The translations under genes were made by a program, and so were the position numbers. This document shows, in pieces, positions 50,348 through 57,491 of a stretch of 64,000 bases of DNA. This DNA comes from Neotamlana nanhaiensis (GTDB taxonomy: Bacteria; Bacteroidota; Bacteroidia; Flavobacteriales; Flavobacteriaceae), in the NCBI RefSeq assembly GCF_000943555.1, contig NZ_JTDV01000001.1, forward strand, positions 496,001-560,000, read 5' to 3'. Position 1 is the first letter of the stretch; each line of letters opens with the position of its first letter. Below the pieces are notes generated by a model that saw only the letters and a program-made list of their open reading frames with translations, searched no databases and had not been told where the DNA came from.

Positions 50348-50392
50348 TGTAACCCTTGTTACACTTGTTAATTATTTAAAGTCTTAATTTTA
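50348..50392 (+). promoter_or_regulatory. Crp/Fnr-type operator and promoter, site 1 (regulator gene)
   Basis: TGTAAC-CCTT-GTTACA (50348-50363) is a perfect palindrome. Twenty-one nt later TAATTTTA (50385-50392) stands where a -7 TAnnTTTG belongs. The regulator ATG is at 50411, so the site suggests autoregulation. There is no good -33 element, as expected for a promoter needing an activator. Confidence 0.75.
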
Positions 50393-50410
50393 TAGTCACA
50401 ATTAAGCGTT

Positions 50411-51040
50411 ATGATTCAAGAATTAAAAAATAATTACGGCCATTTATTTGAAAACGATTTACTAACCGAAATAAACCAAGTAGGCACCTTTAAAGAAGTG
50501 CCAGAAGGTTTTAAAATGATAAACATTGGTGAATATGTAAAATCTATGCCGCTTTTAATTTCAGGCGCCATTAAAATTTTACGTGAAGACAATGATGGCG
50601 ACGAACTCCTACTCTATTTTCTTGAAAAAGGCGACACTTGTGCCATGACGCTTACCTGCTGCTTAGGGCAAACCAAAAGTGAAATAAAAGCTATAGTAGA
50701 AACCGATGCTAAACTCATAATGATTCCTATTCAGAAAATGGAAGAATGGTCGGCGAAATATAAAAGCTGGCGTAATTTTGTTTTTGAAAGCTACCATAAC
50801 CGACTTAATGAAATGCTCGATACTATTGATAGTATTGCCTTTTTAAAAATGGACGAACGTTTGCTTAAATATTTAAATGAAAAAGCGCGAGTTTCAGAAG
50901 ATGGTATCATAAAAAATACTCACCAAGAAATAGCCTACGAATTACATACCTCTCGCGTAGTGATTTCCCGACTTTTAAAAAAGCTTGAAAACTTAGGAGA
51001 AATTAAATTGCATCGAAATTATATCACGCTGGTAAAATAA
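50411..51040 (+). CDS. Crp/Fnr-family transcriptional regulator
   Basis: This 209-residue regulator has an N-terminal cyclic-nucleotide-binding-type beta roll (about 20-120) and a C-terminal helix-turn-helix (THQEIAYELHTSRVVISRLLK). The roll lacks typical cAMP-contact residues. It has three close cysteines, C77, C83 and C84 (GDTCAMTLTCCLG), that could sense a reactive sulfur or redox signal. Its gene and three sulfur-related units downstream share the same palindrome, so it is their likely regulator. It is probably an activator, because the palindromes sit about 43 nt before the inferred transcription starts. Confidence 0.93.
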   Translation: MIQELKNNYGHLFENDLLTEINQVGTFKEVPEGFKMINIGEYVKSMPLLISGAIKILREDNDGDELLLYFLEKGDTCAMTLTCCLGQTKSEIKAIVETDAKLIMIPIQKMEEWSAKYKSWRNFVFESYHNRLNEMLDTIDSIAFLKMDERLLKYLNEKARVSEDGIIKNTHQEIAYELHTSRVVISRLLKKLENLGEIKLHRNYITLVK

Positions 51041-51045
51041 AACGG

Positions 51046-51170
51046 CATCGCGAAGCACGAAGCGATCTGTTTATTACCAATCTTGCGCTCGCTAAGGCAC
51101 AAAGACACAAAGGCAATTTCTTGGAAGTGAAAGTTATTTAGTTCCGTCATCGCGAGATACGAAGCAATCT
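51046..51170. repeat. remnant dispersed repeats between the regulator and TauE genes
   Basis: Two copies of a 23-nt motif of the form CATCGCGA-nnn-ACGAAGC-R-ATCT are at 51046-51068 and 51148-51170. Between them is TTGCGCTCGCTAAGGCACAAAGACACAAAGG-type sequence (about 51082-51114). These are familiar intergenic repeat motifs in flavobacteria and do not encode protein. Confidence 0.65.
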
Positions 51171-51257
51171 TTATTAATAAAAAAATAATTATAATTCTCC
51201 CGACTCCGCACTTCAATTTTCCAACTCTCAACAAAAAATTAAAAACTTCCATTGCTA

Positions 51258-51302
51258 TGTAACCAATGTTACTGCACAGGTATAAAACCACGTATACTTT
51301 TG
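51258..51302 (+). promoter_or_regulatory. Crp/Fnr-type operator and promoter, site 2 (TauE/SafE gene)
   Basis: TGTAAC-CAAT-GTTACT (51258-51273) is followed after exactly 21 nt by TACTTTTG (51295-51302), a full TAnnTTTG match. The ATG is at 51317. No TTG lies at the -33 distance. Confidence 0.78.
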
Positions 51303-51316
51303 CTAAAAAGATAAAC

Positions 51317-52126
51317 ATGGATGTTTTAAATATATTTGGCTACGTTGGTGCTTTTATAATAGGTATTTCCCTTGGATTAATTGGTGGTGGCGGTTCTATT
51401 TTAGCCGTACCGGTATTAGCTTACCTGTTCGCAATAAACGAAAAAGTTGCCACGGCATATTCGCTTTTTATTGTTGGTGCAAGCGCTTTAATTGGTGGCA
51501 TAAAACAACATTTTAAAGGTTATGTCGACTGGCGAACGGCTTTAGTCTTCGGGCTACCAGCTATTGTTGGCGTAACCATTGTTAGACATTATGTGGTTCC
51601 TGCTTTACCCGATGTAATTTTTAGTATTGGTAATTTTAATTTTACACGCCGTATGGCTATGTTCGGGCTTTTTGCAGCATTAATGATTCCGGCAGCGTTT
51701 TCAATGCTAAAAAATAAAGAAACCATAGTTGTTACTGGGCAAGTAACTTACAATTATCCCTTAATTTTATTAGAAGGCCTAATTGTTGGTAGTATTACAG
51801 GACTCATTGGTGCTGGCGGCGGTTTTTTAATAATTCCTGCATTGGTTATTTTAGCTAACGTAGAAATGAAAGTTGCCGTAGCAACCTCTTTAATTATCAT
51901 CGCTTTTAAATCGCTCATGGGATTCTTTTTAGGAGACGCTTTAACCATGGCTATTAATTGGAACTTTTTAATGCTTTTTACCTTACTGTCGTTTATTGGT
52001 ATCTTTTTTGGAAGCTTTTTAAGCAATTTTATAGATGGTAATAAACTAAAAAAAGGCTTCGGCTATTTTATTTTTGTAATGGCATTCTTTATTTTTTACA
52101 TGGAGTTTTTTACGCCAAAAATTTAA
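51317..52126 (+). CDS. TauE/SafE-family anion exporter
   Basis: This 269-residue membrane protein has about eight helices and the two TauE/SafE repeat motifs: ISLGLIGGGGSILAVP in the first half and SITGLIGAGGGFLIIPA in the second. The family exports sulfite, sulfoacetate or related sulfur anions. The start MDVLNIFGYVGAF at 51317 is preferred because an ATG at 51266 would overlap the operator. It is the first transporter of the sulfur regulon. Confidence 0.93.
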   Translation: MDVLNIFGYVGAFIIGISLGLIGGGGSILAVPVLAYLFAINEKVATAYSLFIVGASALIGGIKQHFKGYVDWRTALVFGLPAIVGVTIVRHYVVPALPDVIFSIGNFNFTRRMAMFGLFAALMIPAAFSMLKNKETIVVTGQVTYNYPLILLEGLIVGSITGLIGAGGGFLIIPALVILANVEMKVAVATSLIIIAFKSLMGFFLGDALTMAINWNFLMLFTLLSFIGIFFGSFLSNFIDGNKLKKGFGYFIFVMAFFIFYMEFFTPKI

Positions 52127-52136
52127 AACCCCAATA

Positions 52137-52181
52137 AGTAACCTTTGTTACCATAAAAACAAAACACTATTAGTAATTTTA
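52137..52181 (+). promoter_or_regulatory. Crp/Fnr-type operator and promoter, site 3 (persulfide dioxygenase gene)
   Basis: AGTAAC-CTTT-GTTACC (52137-52152) is followed after exactly 21 nt by TAATTTTA (52174-52181), the same -7 sequence as in site 1. The ATG is at 52205. Confidence 0.75.
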
Positions 52182-52204
52182 CACCCTATTAAAAAATTAA
52201 TACT

Positions 52205-53614
52205 ATGAAAATAGAACAAATATACACCGGATGTTTAGCTCAAGGCGCTTATTATATTGAAAGTAATGGCGAAGTTGCTATAATAGACCCATTACGCGAG
52301 GTACAACCGTATATTGAGAAAGCAAAGAAAAACAATGCCACCATTAAGTATATTTTTGAAACGCATTTTCATGCTGATTTTGTTAGCGGCCACGTTACCT
52401 TATCAAAAGAAACTGGTGCACCAATCATTTATGGGCCTTTAGCTACTCCAAGTTTTGAAGCAATTATAGCCAAAGACAACGAAGAATTTAGATTAGGAAA
52501 CATTACTATAAAAGTATTACACACACCAGGACACACTATGGAAAGTTCCGTGTTTCTTCTTAAAGATGAAAACGGAAAAGATCATGCTATTTTTAGCGGT
52601 GACACCCTATTTTTAGGCGATGTTGGTCGACCCGATTTAGCCCAAAAAGCAGGCGAAATTACCGAAGAAGATTTGGCAGGTTATTTATTTGATAGCTTAC
52701 GAAATAAAATTATGCCTTTGGCAGATGATGTTATTGTTTATCCCGCTCATGGTGCTGGTTCGGCATGTGGTAAAAATTTAAGTAAAGACACAGTTGATAC
52801 ATTAGGCAATCAGAAAAAAACAAATTACGCTTTACGCGAAGATATGCTGAAAGCTGAATTTATTAAGGAAGTAACTCATGGTTTATTGCCTCCACCGCAA
52901 TATTTTCCTTTAAACGTAAAAATGAACAAGGAAGGATACGATGATTTTAACGAAGTGTTAAAACGTAGTGCACAGGCCTTATCTCCTAATGCTTTTGAAG
53001 CTGCTGCTAACGATACGGATGCGGTTATTTTAGATGTTCGACATCAAAATGACTTTGCTCAAGGCCATATACCACGCTCAATTTTTATTGGATTAGATGG
53101 CGGATTTGCACCATGGGTTGGCGCCTTAATTGCCGATGTAAAACAACCTATTTTATTGGTAACTCCCGATGGACGAGAAGAAGAAACCATTACCCGCTTA
53201 TCGCGTGTTGGGTTCGATCAAGTTATTGGATTTTTAGATGGTGGTTTCGAAAATTGGAAAAATGCTTCAAAAGAATATGATACTGTAAGTTCGGTAGAAG
53301 CTTCAGTTTTTAAAAATGCTTTAAATGATGGTGAAGTGCCTGTTTTTGATGTTAGAAAAGATGGCGAGTACAAATCTGAACATGTTTTAGATGCCAACCA
53401 TACACCTCTCGATTATTTAAACGAACATCTCTCAGAATTTCCAGATAAAGACACTTTTTATGTACACTGCGCAGGCGGATATCGTAGTATGATTGCTGCT
53501 TCTATTTTAAAAAGCAGAGGTATTCATAACTTAATTGATGTAAAAGGCGGATTTAAAGCCATAAAAGAAGCTGGTGTAGACGTTACAGATTATGTTTGTC
53601 CGTCAACTTTATAA
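52205..53614 (+). CDS. persulfide dioxygenase (ETHE1-like) fused to two rhodanese domains
   Basis: This 469-residue protein has an N-terminal metallo-beta-lactamase domain (about 1-240) with ETHFHADFVSGH, HTPGHTMES and SGDTLFLGDVGRPD, matching ETHE1-type persulfide dioxygenases. Two rhodanese domains follow. The first (about 265-360) lacks a catalytic cysteine (LLVTPDGREEE), while the second has C422 in HCAGGYRS. The protein would oxidise glutathione- or bacillithiol-type persulfides to sulfite and move sulfane sulfur. The next gene is another rhodanese, 9 nt away. The sulfite formed could leave through the TauE protein. Confidence 0.92.
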   Translation: MKIEQIYTGCLAQGAYYIESNGEVAIIDPLREVQPYIEKAKKNNATIKYIFETHFHADFVSGHVTLSKETGAPIIYGPLATPSFEAIIAKDNEEFRLGNITIKVLHTPGHTMESSVFLLKDENGKDHAIFSGDTLFLGDVGRPDLAQKAGEITEEDLAGYLFDSLRNKIMPLADDVIVYPAHGAGSACGKNLSKDTVDTLGNQKKTNYALREDMLKAEFIKEVTHGLLPPPQYFPLNVKMNKEGYDDFNEVLKRSAQALSPNAFEAAANDTDAVILDVRHQNDFAQGHIPRSIFIGLDGGFAPWVGALIADVKQPILLVTPDGREEETITRLSRVGFDQVIGFLDGGFENWKNASKEYDTVSSVEASVFKNALNDGEVPVFDVRKDGEYKSEHVLDANHTPLDYLNEHLSEFPDKDTFYVHCAGGYRSMIAASILKSRGIHNLIDVKGGFKAIKEAGVDVTDYVCPSTL

Positions 53615-53623
53615 TTAAAAACC

Positions 53624-53992
53624 ATGAAACATTTTATTGTAATTATGTCTATATTTTCATTTCTTTTTGGATGCTCACAACAGCCAAAATCTGTAACAGT
53701 ACTTGATAAATCGGAATTTAAATCAGCTATGTCATCAAATAATGTTCAACTTGTAGATGTGCGCACCGCTGTTGAATATAAATCGGGACATATAAACAAC
53801 GCCATTAATATTGATGTTTTTAATCATTCTAAGTTTATTGAAGCATTTAATAAATTAGACAAAAATAAAGCCGTTTTCGTTTATTGTCGTTCGGGAAAAC
53901 GCAGTAATAAGGCCGCCAAAAAATTGGATAGTTTGGGGTTTAAAACCATTTACGATTTAAAAGGAGGCTATTTAAATTGGATTAAAAACTAA
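53624..53992 (+). CDS. rhodanese-domain lipoprotein
   Basis: This 122-residue protein has a lipoprotein signal (MKHFIVIMSIFSFLF, lipidated C17) and one rhodanese domain with catalytic C88 in VYCRSGKRS. It handles sulfane sulfur on the periplasmic side. It follows the persulfide dioxygenase gene by 9 nt and is followed by a terminator, so the two form the operon driven from site 3. Confidence 0.92.
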   Translation: MKHFIVIMSIFSFLFGCSQQPKSVTVLDKSEFKSAMSSNNVQLVDVRTAVEYKSGHINNAINIDVFNHSKFIEAFNKLDKNKAVFVYCRSGKRSNKAAKKLDSLGFKTIYDLKGGYLNWIKN

Positions 53993-54020
53993 TTACAGAT
54001 TTTACAATATTGAAAGCTAA

Positions 54021-54059
54021 AAAACAGTCAAAAAAACATAGGATTTTGGCTGTTTTTTT
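54021..54059 (+). terminator. rho-independent terminator after the rhodanese operon
   Basis: AAAACAGTCAAAA (54021-54033) pairs with TTTTGGCTGTTTT (54044-54056), with one G-U pair, followed by T residues. It separates the rhodanese operon from cydAB. Confidence 0.82.
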
Positions 54060-54082
54060 ATGCCAAAAAATGAAGCAATACG

Positions 54083-54090
54083 TATCTTTG
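54083..54090 (+). promoter_or_regulatory. -7 promoter element of cydAB
   Basis: TATCTTTG matches TAnnTTTG and lies 25 nt before the cydA start. There is no GTAAC palindrome and no clear -33, so cydAB seems separately controlled from the surrounding sulfur genes. Confidence 0.5.
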
Positions 54091-54115
54091 TAAAACACCT
54101 AAAAAACACAATAAT

Positions 54116-55417
54116 ATGGATAATTTAGATGCAGCAAGACTGCAAATGGCGTTTACCTTAATTTTTCATATTGTTTTTGCTTGCGTAGGTATGGTTATGC
54201 CTTTTTTTATGATTGTTGCGCATAAAAAATGGCTCAATACAAGAAATCCTGTTTATTTAACTTTAACCAAATCTTGGCAGCGAGGTGTCGCTATTTTTTT
54301 TGTTACTGGCGCAGTTTCTGGCACAGCTTTATCTTTTGAACTAGGCTTACTCTGGCCTGAATTTATGAAATATGCAGGCCCCATAATAGGTATGCCGTTT
54401 TCGCTTGAAGGCGCAGCCTTTTTTATTGAAGCCATCGCACTTGGATTTTACCTGTACGGTTGGAATAAATTACCTGAAAAATTCCATTGGTTCACAGGCG
54501 TTATTATTGGAATTTCGGGAGTGGCTTCAGGAATTTTAGTGGTTGCAGCAAACGGTTGGATGAATGCGCCTTCGGGTTTCGATTATATTGATGGTAAGTT
54601 TTTAAATATCGATCCAATAAAAGCCTTTTTAAACGACGCATGGTTTACCCAAGCCTTACATATGGTTTTAGCAGCATTTACGGCTACTGGATTTGCAGTT
54701 GCTGGCATTCACGCGTTTCAAATTTATAAAAAGAGACAGGTTGAATTACATAAAAAAGCTTTTAAAATTGCGATTACATTTGCTGCTGTAGCAGCTATTT
54801 TACAACCTATAAGTGGTGATTTATCGGCTAAAGATATTGCTAAACGCCAACCAGTTAAACTCGCCGCTATGGAAGCCCATTTTGAAACAGAAAAAGGCGC
54901 ACCTCTTTTTATTGGTGGTATTGTAGATGAAGAAAACCAAGAAGTATCTTATAAAATTGAAATCCCTAAAGCTTTATCTTTTCTAGCTTTTGGAGATTTT
55001 GATGCCGAAGTTAAAGGCTTAAACGAGTTCCCAAAAGAAAATCACCCCAATGTTGCTATGGTACATTACGCCTTTCAAATTATGGTTGGTATTGGTACGT
55101 TGCTCATGTTTGCAGGTATCATTTTCTTTGTGAGCTTAAAAAAGAAAGCTTGGTGGCAAAAAAACGCGTTTTGGCTGGCTTTTGTATTATTGGCTCCTTT
55201 AGGATTTATTGCCTTAGAAGCTGGTTGGATTGTTACCGAAGTGGGACGACAACCTTGGATAATTCACAACATTATGCGCACCAAAGACGCTGTTACGCCA
55301 ATGCCTGGAATGATTTATAGTTTTTACACCTATGTAGTGCTATATACCATACTTACCATTGCTGTTACTTGGTTAATGCGTCGTCAAATTCAATTTTTAA
55401 ACGCCACAAAATTATAA
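54116..55417 (+). CDS. cydA: cytochrome bd-type quinol oxidase subunit I
   Basis: This 433-residue subunit I has about nine membrane helices and haem-ligand histidines such as H18 (LIFHIVFACVG). The QxW-type motif is EVGRQPWIIH and the quinol loop is short, so it resembles the CIO/short-Q-loop subfamily rather than the longer E. coli form. It reduces oxygen with quinol, and bd oxidases tolerate sulfide better than haem-copper oxidases. cydB begins 2 nt after the stop. Confidence 0.95.
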   Translation: MDNLDAARLQMAFTLIFHIVFACVGMVMPFFMIVAHKKWLNTRNPVYLTLTKSWQRGVAIFFVTGAVSGTALSFELGLLWPEFMKYAGPIIGMPFSLEGAAFFIEAIALGFYLYGWNKLPEKFHWFTGVIIGISGVASGILVVAANGWMNAPSGFDYIDGKFLNIDPIKAFLNDAWFTQALHMVLAAFTATGFAVAGIHAFQIYKKRQVELHKKAFKIAITFAAVAAILQPISGDLSAKDIAKRQPVKLAAMEAHFETEKGAPLFIGGIVDEENQEVSYKIEIPKALSFLAFGDFDAEVKGLNEFPKENHPNVAMVHYAFQIMVGIGTLLMFAGIIFFVSLKKKAWWQKNAFWLAFVLLAPLGFIALEAGWIVTEVGRQPWIIHNIMRTKDAVTPMPGMIYSFYTYVVLYTILTIAVTWLMRRQIQFLNATKL

Positions 55418-55419
55418 TT

Positions 55420-56439
55420 ATGCTTTACGTTGTTTTATTTTTTCTTTTCTTTTCATTATTACTCTATGTTATTTTAGCGGGAGCCGATTTTGGAGCGGGT
55501 ATTGTAGAGTTGTTTTCATCGAAAGAAAGTAGAATTATTACCAAAGGTACAGTATACCGCGTTATGGGTCCCATTTGGGAAGCTAATCATATTTGGATTA
55601 TTATAGTCATTGTTATTTTATGGATTGCATTTCCAGATTTTTACAATGTACTAACCGTGTATTTACACATACCTCTGACCCTTATTTTAATGGGAATAAC
55701 ACTTCGGGGTGTCGCTTTTGTATTTAGACATTATGATGCTTACAAAGGCCGATTGCACAAATTATATGACTGGATGTTTCGAATTTCCAGTTTGGTTACA
55801 CCCATTTTTATTGGTTTAACTTTTGGTGCCATGGTTTCTGGTAAATTAATTATTACTACCAATTATGCTTCCTATAGTTTTTATGATGTGTTTATCTCCC
55901 CTTGGTGTAATACATTTTCCTTACTAATAGGATTATTTTTTATGGCTTTATGTGCATTTCTTTCGGCAATACTTTTAATTGGTGAAGCTAAAAAAGAAGA
56001 TATTAATATGTACCTTAAAAAATCGATTGTAGCAACCATTTTAGTGGTTTTGTCTGGATTCTTCACATTAACTTATGGTTATTTAAATGATTTTGCTTTT
56101 GTAACCGATTTTATCGAAAACAGCTACTCAAACTACCTCATTTTATTATCTGGTATTTTAATTATTCCATTATTAATTAGCATAAAAAAAGGACACAAAA
56201 TAATGAGTCGTGGTTTAGCTGGCGCTCAAGTTATTTTAATTTTAACCGCGGCGTTAATAGCCCATTTTCCGCATATTATAATTACCTCAACTTCCGAGAT
56301 TGGTTTATTAGATAGTATCGCGCCAAACAGGGTAATTAATAGTTTAGGCATCGCGTTAATAATTGGTGGAACATTAATTTTACCTGGCTTGTTTCATTTA
56401 TTTAAATCTTTTAAAATAATTAAGGTTTTAGACCTTTAA
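55420..56439 (+). CDS. cydB: cytochrome bd-type quinol oxidase subunit II
   Basis: This 339-residue subunit II has about eight membrane helices, beginning MLYVVLFFLFFSLLLYVILAG. It has the family motifs LAGADFGAGIVELF and GPIWEANHIWIIIV. The start at 55420 is 2 nt after cydA; an ATG at 55369 inside cydA was rejected. No CydX-like small gene is visible behind it; instead operator site 4 follows. Confidence 0.94.
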   Translation: MLYVVLFFLFFSLLLYVILAGADFGAGIVELFSSKESRIITKGTVYRVMGPIWEANHIWIIIVIVILWIAFPDFYNVLTVYLHIPLTLILMGITLRGVAFVFRHYDAYKGRLHKLYDWMFRISSLVTPIFIGLTFGAMVSGKLIITTNYASYSFYDVFISPWCNTFSLLIGLFFMALCAFLSAILLIGEAKKEDINMYLKKSIVATILVVLSGFFTLTYGYLNDFAFVTDFIENSYSNYLILLSGILIIPLLISIKKGHKIMSRGLAGAQVILILTAALIAHFPHIIITSTSEIGLLDSIAPNRVINSLGIALIIGGTLILPGLFHLFKSFKIIKVLDL

Positions 56440-56448
56440 TTTGGGGCC

Positions 56449-56493
56449 TGTAACAATTGTTACTAACTAGTTTCAAAAATTCCCTTTAATTTG
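56449..56493 (+). promoter_or_regulatory. Crp/Fnr-type operator and promoter, site 4 (YeeE/YedE genes)
   Basis: TGTAAC-AATT-GTTACT (56449-56464) is followed after exactly 21 nt by TTAATTTG (56486-56493), one mismatch from TAnnTTTG. The ATG is at 56513. Confidence 0.75.
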
Positions 56494-56512: not shown

Positions 56513-57070
56513 ATGAATTTTATTCTCGAACCTTGGCCATGGTATGTTTCTGGCCCATTAATAGCCATTTGTATGTTTTTACTGTTATTGGCAGGTAAAA
56601 CCTTTGGAATGTCGAGCAACCTTAGAACGATGTGTTCTATTTTAGGCGCAGGCAAAAAAGTAGTTTTTTTTAATTTCGATTGGAAAGCTCAAAAATGGAA
56701 TTTAACTGTAGTTTTAGGCACTATTATTGGTGGTTTTATAGCCGCTCACTTACTTTCTAACAACTTAAATGTTGCCATATCTGAACAAACCATAACCGAT
56801 TTAAACCAACTCGGTTTTAATAGTGCAGGACAAGCCTATTTACCAACCGAATTATTCGACTTGTCTCAATTAACTAATTTCAAATCACTGTTAATTCTGG
56901 CTCTTGGTGGCTTGTTAGTTGGTTTTGGCACACGTTACGCTGGTGGGTGTACTTCGGGACACGCCATTACAGGATTAAGTAATTTGCAATTACCTTCATT
57001 AATTGCCGTTATTGGCTTTTTTGTTGGTGGTTTAGTTATGATTCACCTTTTGTTTCCTTTTATTTTTTAA
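56513..57070 (+). CDS. YeeE/YedE-family transporter half (first subunit)
   Basis: This 185-residue protein has about five membrane helices with the YeeE/YedE signature [11 protein letters not shown] (C146). The family includes TsuA, which imports thiosulfate through a series of conserved cysteines. Here the transporter is encoded as two short genes, with the partner 4 nt downstream. It is driven from operator site 4. Confidence 0.9.
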
Positions 57071-57074
57071 ACAG

Positions 57075-57491
57075 ATGAAAAAGTATATTACATTTTTAGC
57101 CATTGGTATATTATTAGGAATTACACTGTTTAAATCGGAAGCAGCGTCGTGGTTTCGTATTTACGAAATGTTTAAATTTCAATCGTTCCACATGTATGGT
57201 ATTATTGGTTCTGCTTTGGTTTTAGGCATTATTTTTGTTCAAATTATTAAGAGAAAAAACCTGAAATCGTTTTACAAAGAAGCCATAGTAATACCTGCAA
57301 AAAACAAAAGCTTTTACCGTTATTTTATCGGCGGAACCATTTTCGGCTTAGGTTGGGCACTTGCTGGAGCTTGTCCTGGACCAATGTATGTGCTTTTTGG
57401 CGCAGGATTTTTTAATATTTTAGTCGTTATCGTTTTTGCGCTTTTAGGCACCTATTTGTATGGCGTTTTTAAGGATAAGCTACCGCATTGA
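57075..57491 (+). CDS. YeeE/YedE-family transporter half (second subunit, DUF6691-type)
   Basis: This 138-residue protein has about four membrane helices and the motif GWALAGACPGPMY (C100), the second half of a YeeE/YedE transporter. It starts 4 nt after the first half. Together they would form one sulfur-compound channel with opposing cysteine motifs. It is the last gene of the sulfur block; 148 bp of AT-rich sequence follow. Confidence 0.88.
   Translation: MKKYITFLAIGILLGITLFKSEAASWFRIYEMFKFQSFHMYGIIGSALVLGIIFVQIIKRKNLKSFYKEAIVIPAKNKSFYRYFIGGTIFGLGWALAGACPGPMYVLFGAGFFNILVVIVFALLGTYLYGVFKDKLPH

Follow-up and report, generated by a model that had tools for sequence, protein, structure and literature searches.

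In this study, we analyzed 64,000 nt of contig NZ_JTDV01000001.1 of Neotamlana nanhaiensis (the window; coordinates below are window positions), in which four GTAAC-N4-GTTAC palindromes precede the gene of a Crp/Fnr-family regulator and three groups of sulfur genes, each at one fixed distance from a putative −7 promoter box. It is very probable that this arrangement is a genuine switch responding to sulfide, because four matching sites with fixed spacing link the regulator and sulfide genes and recur in many relatives. The sites, their fixed spacing, the gene set and the co-occurrence with the regulator were established by computation. The regulator (50411–51040, + strand) quite likely acts as class II activator of this sulfur regulon, and sulfane sulfur is the signal that we moderately favor.

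In the proposed mechanism, the regulator would be dedicated to activating the defence against sulfide and sulfane sulfur. Its dimer would bind TGTAAC-N4-GTTAC centred at −41.5 (class II) and touch RNA polymerase, while the sigma factor would read a −7 box TAnnTTTG and a −33 element that is weak or absent. Cys77, together with Cys83 and Cys84, would sense sulfane sulfur in the former cAMP pocket. Activated here would be the regulator's own gene, a TauE exporter, a persulfide dioxygenase (PDO)-rhodanese operon and a YeeE/YedE pair, and in relatives also genes for sulfide:quinone reductase (SQR), SulP, a SorA-like sulfite dehydrogenase, a peroxiredoxin and DUF983-like proteins.

Many Flavobacteriaceae carry PDO and SQR genes behind this promoter, and the titles, abstract starts and passages covered by our literature search name no Crp/Fnr regulator for these flavobacterial genes. 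With the promoter code TGTAAC-N4-GTTAC, 21 nt, TAnnTTTG, the regulon can be recognised from genome sequence, and the code would give an activator-dependent type of the Bacteroidota −7/−33 promoter. Also, a candidate cysteine sensor on a Crp fold becomes directly testable.

Palindromes, −7 boxes and promoter geometry

All four palindromes of the original prediction were found as exact matches on the + strand. Palindrome 1 (TGTAACCCTTGTTACA, 50348–50363), the predicted operator of the regulator gene, stands in the same place in three of three Tamlana loci (L080–L082; the closest named relatives among the matches listed), one of which (L082) has no exact YeeE site. Its −7 box TAATTTTA (50385–50392), placed according to passages of PMC9723704, predicts a transcription start at 50397 and a leader of 14 nt. 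Palindrome 2 (TGTAACCAATGTTACT, 51258–51273) is the predicted operator of tauE and is followed by the box TACTTTTG (51295–51302; predicted start 51307, leader 10 nt). Palindrome 3 (AGTAACCTTTGTTACC, 52137–52152) would serve the pdo-rhodanese operon, again with a box TAATTTTA (52174–52181; predicted start 52186, leader 19 nt), and palindrome 4 (TGTAACAATTGTTACT, 56449–56464) the YeeE/YedE pair, with the box TTAATTTG (56486–56493; predicted start 56498, leader 15 nt). The gap of 21 nt between the 16-base palindrome and the TAnnTTTG-like box, claimed beforehand for every site, is exact at all four. The full TAnnTTTG is present in one of these boxes, and the other three match five of the six fixed letters.

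Five copies of GTAACN4GTTAC were counted in the window versus a mean of 0.017 for a letter-permutation control, i.e. 59 rearrangements of the half-site letters. In the whole genome (4,020,819 bases) the exact palindrome occurs at six places, including the four window sites, which sit within 6.1 kb. Neither of the two remaining copies has a box at the 21-nt spacing: the fifth (32115) is located inside an open frame, and the sixth (C7:1685) lies 33 nt past a gene stop and is absent from the list of palindrome-plus-box matches with up to three mismatches. Allowing one mismatch, the genome scan for palindrome plus box adds one promoter, GTAACTTTTATTAC, 22 nt, TAACTTTG, before a DUF983 gene, which supports a regulon reaching beyond the four window sites. 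The product of this gene is 36% identical to a DUF983-like protein of a relative (L097), itself without Pfam match. The promoter appears twice in the scan, since its contig C2 (377,790 bases) looks doubled: several scan matches recur there exactly 188,895 bases apart, and twice this length is the whole contig, so that C2 is probably an exact head-to-tail doubling, an assembly artefact.

For the comparison with relatives we used the best 80 of at least 589 loci obtained from a contig scan (1.51 Mb in total; regulators 71–95% identical). These loci contain 241 copies of the palindrome, whereas the letter permutations gave a mean of 1.4 and a maximum of 7; together with five or six of the six box letters it was found 215 times versus a mean of 0.10 (maximum 5). 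Spacers of 0–14 nt other than 4 between the half-sites yielded 0–4 copies each. The full TAnnTTTG stands 22 nt from GTTAC (equal to 21 nt after the 16-mer) in 112 cases; 23 nt accounts for 4 cases, and no other distance between 5 and 60 nt for more than 2. At least five of the six box letters, in the better orientation, are present at 214 of the 241 sites, compared with about 6 expected from other distances. A logo built from 230 sites has its information concentrated at W(−3), T(−1), the palindrome, T14-G15 and the box. Minor signals come from the N4 spacer and from an A-rich stretch that follows the box, while the flanks carry little information.

A second set consisted of 199 genomes of the family, which were scanned for a regulator match (E ≤ 0.001) and for the exact site-plus-box. 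The latter was present in 126 genomes, and the reversed-pattern control (the site-plus-box pattern read backwards) in 2. The expectation that the motif would not be scattered at random is thus borne out by the own genome, the relatives' loci and the family genomes. Four copies in one locus might be a local repeat, but an origin of the palindromes by chance or from repeats has a practically negligible probability: the flanks are low in information, the spacing is fixed, and the pattern stands before different genes and in well over half of the family genomes. Chance was rejected by the letter-permutation, spacer-length, spacing and reversed-pattern controls.

Mapped starts in Flavobacterium psychrophilum put TAnnTTTG at −12 to −5 according to passages of PMC9723704. 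With this borrowed box placement, the palindrome centre is predicted at −41.5 at all four window sites, therefore in class II activator position, and the leaders comprise 10–19 nt. The class II position that had been proposed is thereby retained as a prediction, at −41.5 instead of about −43. A proper −33 element had been described as missing, which fits the window, where TG at −34/−33, adjoining the palindrome, occurs at one of four sites; it occurs at 128 of 231 relatives' sites, so that across the family the element is weak but not wholly lacking. A repressor could also have its site next to the −33 region, masking the promoter until persulfidation releases the protein, as with CstR and BigR; the passages seen class CstR, SqrR and BigR as repressors, though FisR is an activator. 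For the protein studied here we regard repression as improbable, given the rigid spacing to the −7 box (112 cases at 22 nt versus 4 at 23 nt), the centre at the class II position and a −33 element as weak or absent as in activator-dependent promoters.

Genes behind the sites and the candidate signal

All genes of the locus are encoded on the + strand. In the gap between the regulator gene and site 2 (51041–51257), a CGCGAAGCACGAAGCGATCT-like stretch resembles, by eye, a dispersed repeat. Next come the gene of a TauE/SafE-family exporter (51317–52126; PF01925) and a gene whose product combines a metallo-beta-lactamase fold with two rhodanese stretches (52205–53614; domain matches). From this architecture we take the latter to be a PDO-rhodanese fusion; the NCBIfam model for bifunctional ST/SDO Blh gave 50.5 bits, far below its cut-off of 625. 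A single-domain rhodanese with a lipoprotein-like signal, judged by eye (53624–53992; rhodanese match), precedes cydA (54116–55417; TATCTTTG box at 54083) and cydB (55420–56439; domain match) for subunits I and II of cytochrome bd oxidase. The two YeeE/YedE halves are encoded at 56513–57070 (Sulf_transp, PF04143) and 57075–57491 (DUF6691/Sulf_transp).

In relatives, the genes behind the sites were labelled by BLAST to one reference each or by clusters, so that paralogues may be counted among the labels; names of cluster representatives come from profile matches, those of SQR and SorA lying below the NCBIfam cut-offs. Behind the 241 sites we found PDO 63 times, TauE 40, YeeE 23, the regulator 10, rhodanese 9 and CydA 2 times. 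A further 77 genes, unlabelled at first, were clustered into DUF983-like (17), SQR (16), SulP (10), AhpC-type peroxiredoxin (8), SorA-like sulfite dehydrogenase (5), fatty-acid-hydroxylase family (5), cytochrome c/Tll0287-like (5) and TolC-like (4) genes and 7 singletons. The DUF983-like genes follow exact sites in 17 relatives' loci, typically just upstream of the regulator. SQR, PDO and SorA together with export and thiol repair make up a sulfide-oxidation and sulfane-sulfur defence programme. In the own genome, the best SQR match was a partial one (31% over 104 residues) to another flavoprotein, and SQR is therefore considered a target in relatives.

Beyond the family, 198 genomes of the class were scanned, 192 of them outside the regulator's family. 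The site was detected in 33 genomes (31 of the 192; reversed control 2). From 41 class-level hits, 20 sites outside the family were picked by hand, and the genes behind them were pdo (4), TauE (3) and rhodanese-like (2, plus 2 more after a small open reading frame (ORF)) and, once each, YeeE, DUF983-like, TolC-like, thioredoxin, pyridine nucleotide-disulfide reductase, DsbD-like, DUF2492, a secreted protein and hcp. The core of the claim that the sites form one sulfur regulon is thus supported by the whole-genome and cross-genome tests.

The same regulon and regulator could respond to another signal, such as low oxygen, nitric oxide, thiosulfate, sulfite or the thiol redox state. We consider this rather unlikely, but cydAB lies within the cluster, a site precedes cydA in two relatives (L103, L124), and thioredoxin, pyridine nucleotide-disulfide reductase and DsbD-like genes stand behind class-level sites. 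On the other hand, the commonest targets are PDO, TauE, YeeE and SQR, and comparable gene sets in other organisms are under CstR, FisR and BigR, regulators that sense sulfide or persulfide according to passages of PMC9774590 and PMC7315123. Sulfane sulfur is thus retained as the favored candidate.

The regulon had also been proposed to be autoregulated. A putative autoregulatory site is present here and varies among lineages: of 79 testable loci, 32 have a site no more than 700 nt upstream of the regulator; by the script's rule, 15 of these sites are direct, and in the other 17 cases an ORF intervenes. A one-mismatch site is present in 7 further loci.

The regulator and its putative cysteine sensor

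In the family set, 173 of the 199 genomes contain a regulator match. The site-plus-box occurs in 126 of these 173 and in none of the 26 that lack a match (Fisher p = 1.6e-13; 20 of the 26 were listed directly and 6 found by elimination). With a regulator match of E ≤ 1e-75, 102 of 111 genomes have the site-plus-box, and with weaker matches 24 of 62. Many of the regulator-less genomes are small; several of 2.6–5.1 Mb likewise have no site.

Another Crp/Fnr protein might read the sites with the local regulator as bystander, for example the HcpR2-like paralogue L163 (C1:594668), which carries an R-P recognition helix. The published HcpR2 motif is GTAACnnnnGTTAC, the helix SRPTLNT of L163 resembles HcpR2 as far as passages of that source show, and genome G272 of the class-level set combines an exact site-plus-box before hcp with an SRPSLAR protein. 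However, such a paralogue (R-P helix, E ≤ 1e-30) does not predict sites, which occur in 30 of the 55 genomes that have it and in 96 of the 144 that do not; the local regulator, by contrast, is predictive. Two genomes (G088, G144) have the paralogue, no regulator match and no sites, and a PF03063 profile search of the whole own genome found no hcp. Genome co-occurrence therefore does not support L163 as site reader, and we judge this explanation quite improbable. Instead we infer that the regulator encoded at 50411–51040 binds the sites and activates.

This protein of 209 aa (cNMP_binding and HTH_Crp_2 domains) belongs to the Crp/Fnr superfamily, with 31.4 bits for PF00027 (cut-off 27.5) and 31.2 bits for PF13545 (cut-off 27). 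Its AlphaFold model has the Crp fold, and the top PDB fold matches were Thermus CAP, FNR, CRP and NtcA; model and fold search confirm the fold alone. The recognition helix TSRVVISR aligns with STRVTVTR of NtcA and CSRETVGR of CRP. Among 107 regulator sequences, R182 is kept in all and V183 in 104, and Pro at position 183 occurs in none. PF13545 finds five Crp/Fnr proteins in the genome, of which this is the only one with an R-V helix.

The segment TCAMTLTCC stands, by alignment, in place of the phosphate-binding cassette of CRP. With the CRP residue numbering that we assume, Cys77 corresponds to I70, Cys83 to F76, Cys84 to E77, Met79 to E72 and Lys89 to R82. Residues contacting cAMP in CRP include those at positions E72, R82 and S83; here the first two are Met79 and Lys89, and the third is kept as Ser90. 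Cys77, in the former cAMP pocket, was found in 107 of 107 sequences, Cys83 in 104 and Cys84 in 103. The protein may thus represent a new Crp/Fnr subfamily, in which the cAMP phosphate-binding cassette has turned into a Cys77/83/84 sulfane-sulfur sensor and which would act as master class II activator of the oxidation and export of sulfide across Bacteroidia; we put this wider proposal forward tentatively.

Several observations weigh against the regulon as proposed or limit its reach. Among the sites, 10 of 241 in relatives have a poor box and 17 no labelled gene behind them. The cydAB genes, located between two predicted target operons, have no palindrome in the window and were rejected as a further window target. 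In 40 of the 79 testable loci, no site was found upstream of the regulator. With weaker regulator matches, 38 of 62 genomes are without the exact site. Among 20 distant loci, some contain drifted sites that keep the spacing (L170, L178, L180–L182), e.g. GTAACN4ATTAC before yeeE and GTGACN4GTCAC before pdo, and in others no site was found. The family genomes and the 80 loci overlap and are therefore not independent samples. A simple code between residue 183 and the bases was rejected: of the three sequences without Val183, both Glu carriers (L088, L195) stand beside exact GTAAC sites, so that Val183 is not required. Concerning the sensor, 4 of the 26 distant regulators that neighbour sulfur genes have lost Cys83 and/or Cys84 (L168, L169, L178, L195), and L168, without Cys83/84, still has two exact sites. 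The model has a pLDDT of 77 and is lowest (<50) at residues 71–87, the cysteine segment. Sulfane-sulfur sensing by Cys77/83/84 is therefore offered as a hypothesis.

Comparison with known regulators

That the motif differs from the CRP and FNR consensus was stated correctly in the original prediction, yet it had already been published: GTAACnnnnGTTAC is the HcpR2 motif described in 2005 by Rodionov et al. (PMC1274295). According to passages of that paper, HcpR2 has Pro at position 181 in most genomes and lies beside hcp, and its predicted regulon in most Bacteroides is hcp alone. The regulator studied here shares with HcpR2 (passages of PMC1274295 and, for HcpR of B. thetaiotaomicron, of PMC13370916) the identical motif, the occurrence in Bacteroidota, an arginine at the position of CRP R180 and the lack of an FNR-type cysteine motif; by eye, no cysteine precedes Cys77 here. 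In contrast to the Pro and the hcp neighbour of HcpR2, it has Val and sulfur-gene neighbours. Membership in HcpR2 was rejected on the recognition residue (Val183, no Pro in 107 sequences) and the lack of an hcp match in the genome. In another family of the class (L189, from G272), hcp is preceded by this palindrome with identical spacing and box, and the genome has the SRPSLAR Crp/Fnr protein. One promoter code seems to be used by two subfamilies of regulators.

NtcA, the cyanobacterial Crp-family nitrogen activator, resembles the regulator in its R-V recognition helix and in a GTA...TAC palindrome near −41.5. The abstract of PMC3898017 gives the NtcA site as GTAN8TAC at about −41.5. Unlike the regulator here, NtcA serves nitrogen control by 2-oxoglutarate. 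The regulator scores 35.9 bits against the NCBIfam equivalog of NtcA (cut-off 244.95), i.e. it falls outside this family. With CRP and FNR of E. coli, for which the class II position is known and whose DNA motifs differ from GTAACN4GTTAC, it shares the Crp fold; unlike CRP, it has Met79 and Lys89 in place of E72 and R82.

The mostly open-access literature searched, in its titles, abstract starts and passages, describes no Crp/Fnr sulfide or persulfide regulon in Bacteroidota. Crp of A. baumannii was found persulfidated, with an effect not established in the passages of PMC7315123, and in RedB, checked as a possible redox relative, the word cysteine was not found in the main text as available (PMC9603854). 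For such sulfur genes, CstR, SqrR, FisR and BigR are named in passages of a 2022 review (PMC9774590) and of the A. baumannii study (PMC7315123), none of them Crp/Fnr. They control the same kinds of genes as the regulator here would (PDO, SQR, TauE and YeeE/YedE); unlike it, FisR is a sigma-54 activator and CstR a CsoR-like repressor, as far as the passages seen describe them. BigR and SqrR are ArsR-family proteins. If our reading is true, a Crp-fold cysteine sensor would be a further structural solution to dedicated persulfide sensing beside those of the CsoR (CstR), ArsR (BigR/SqrR) and sigma-54 (FisR) types.

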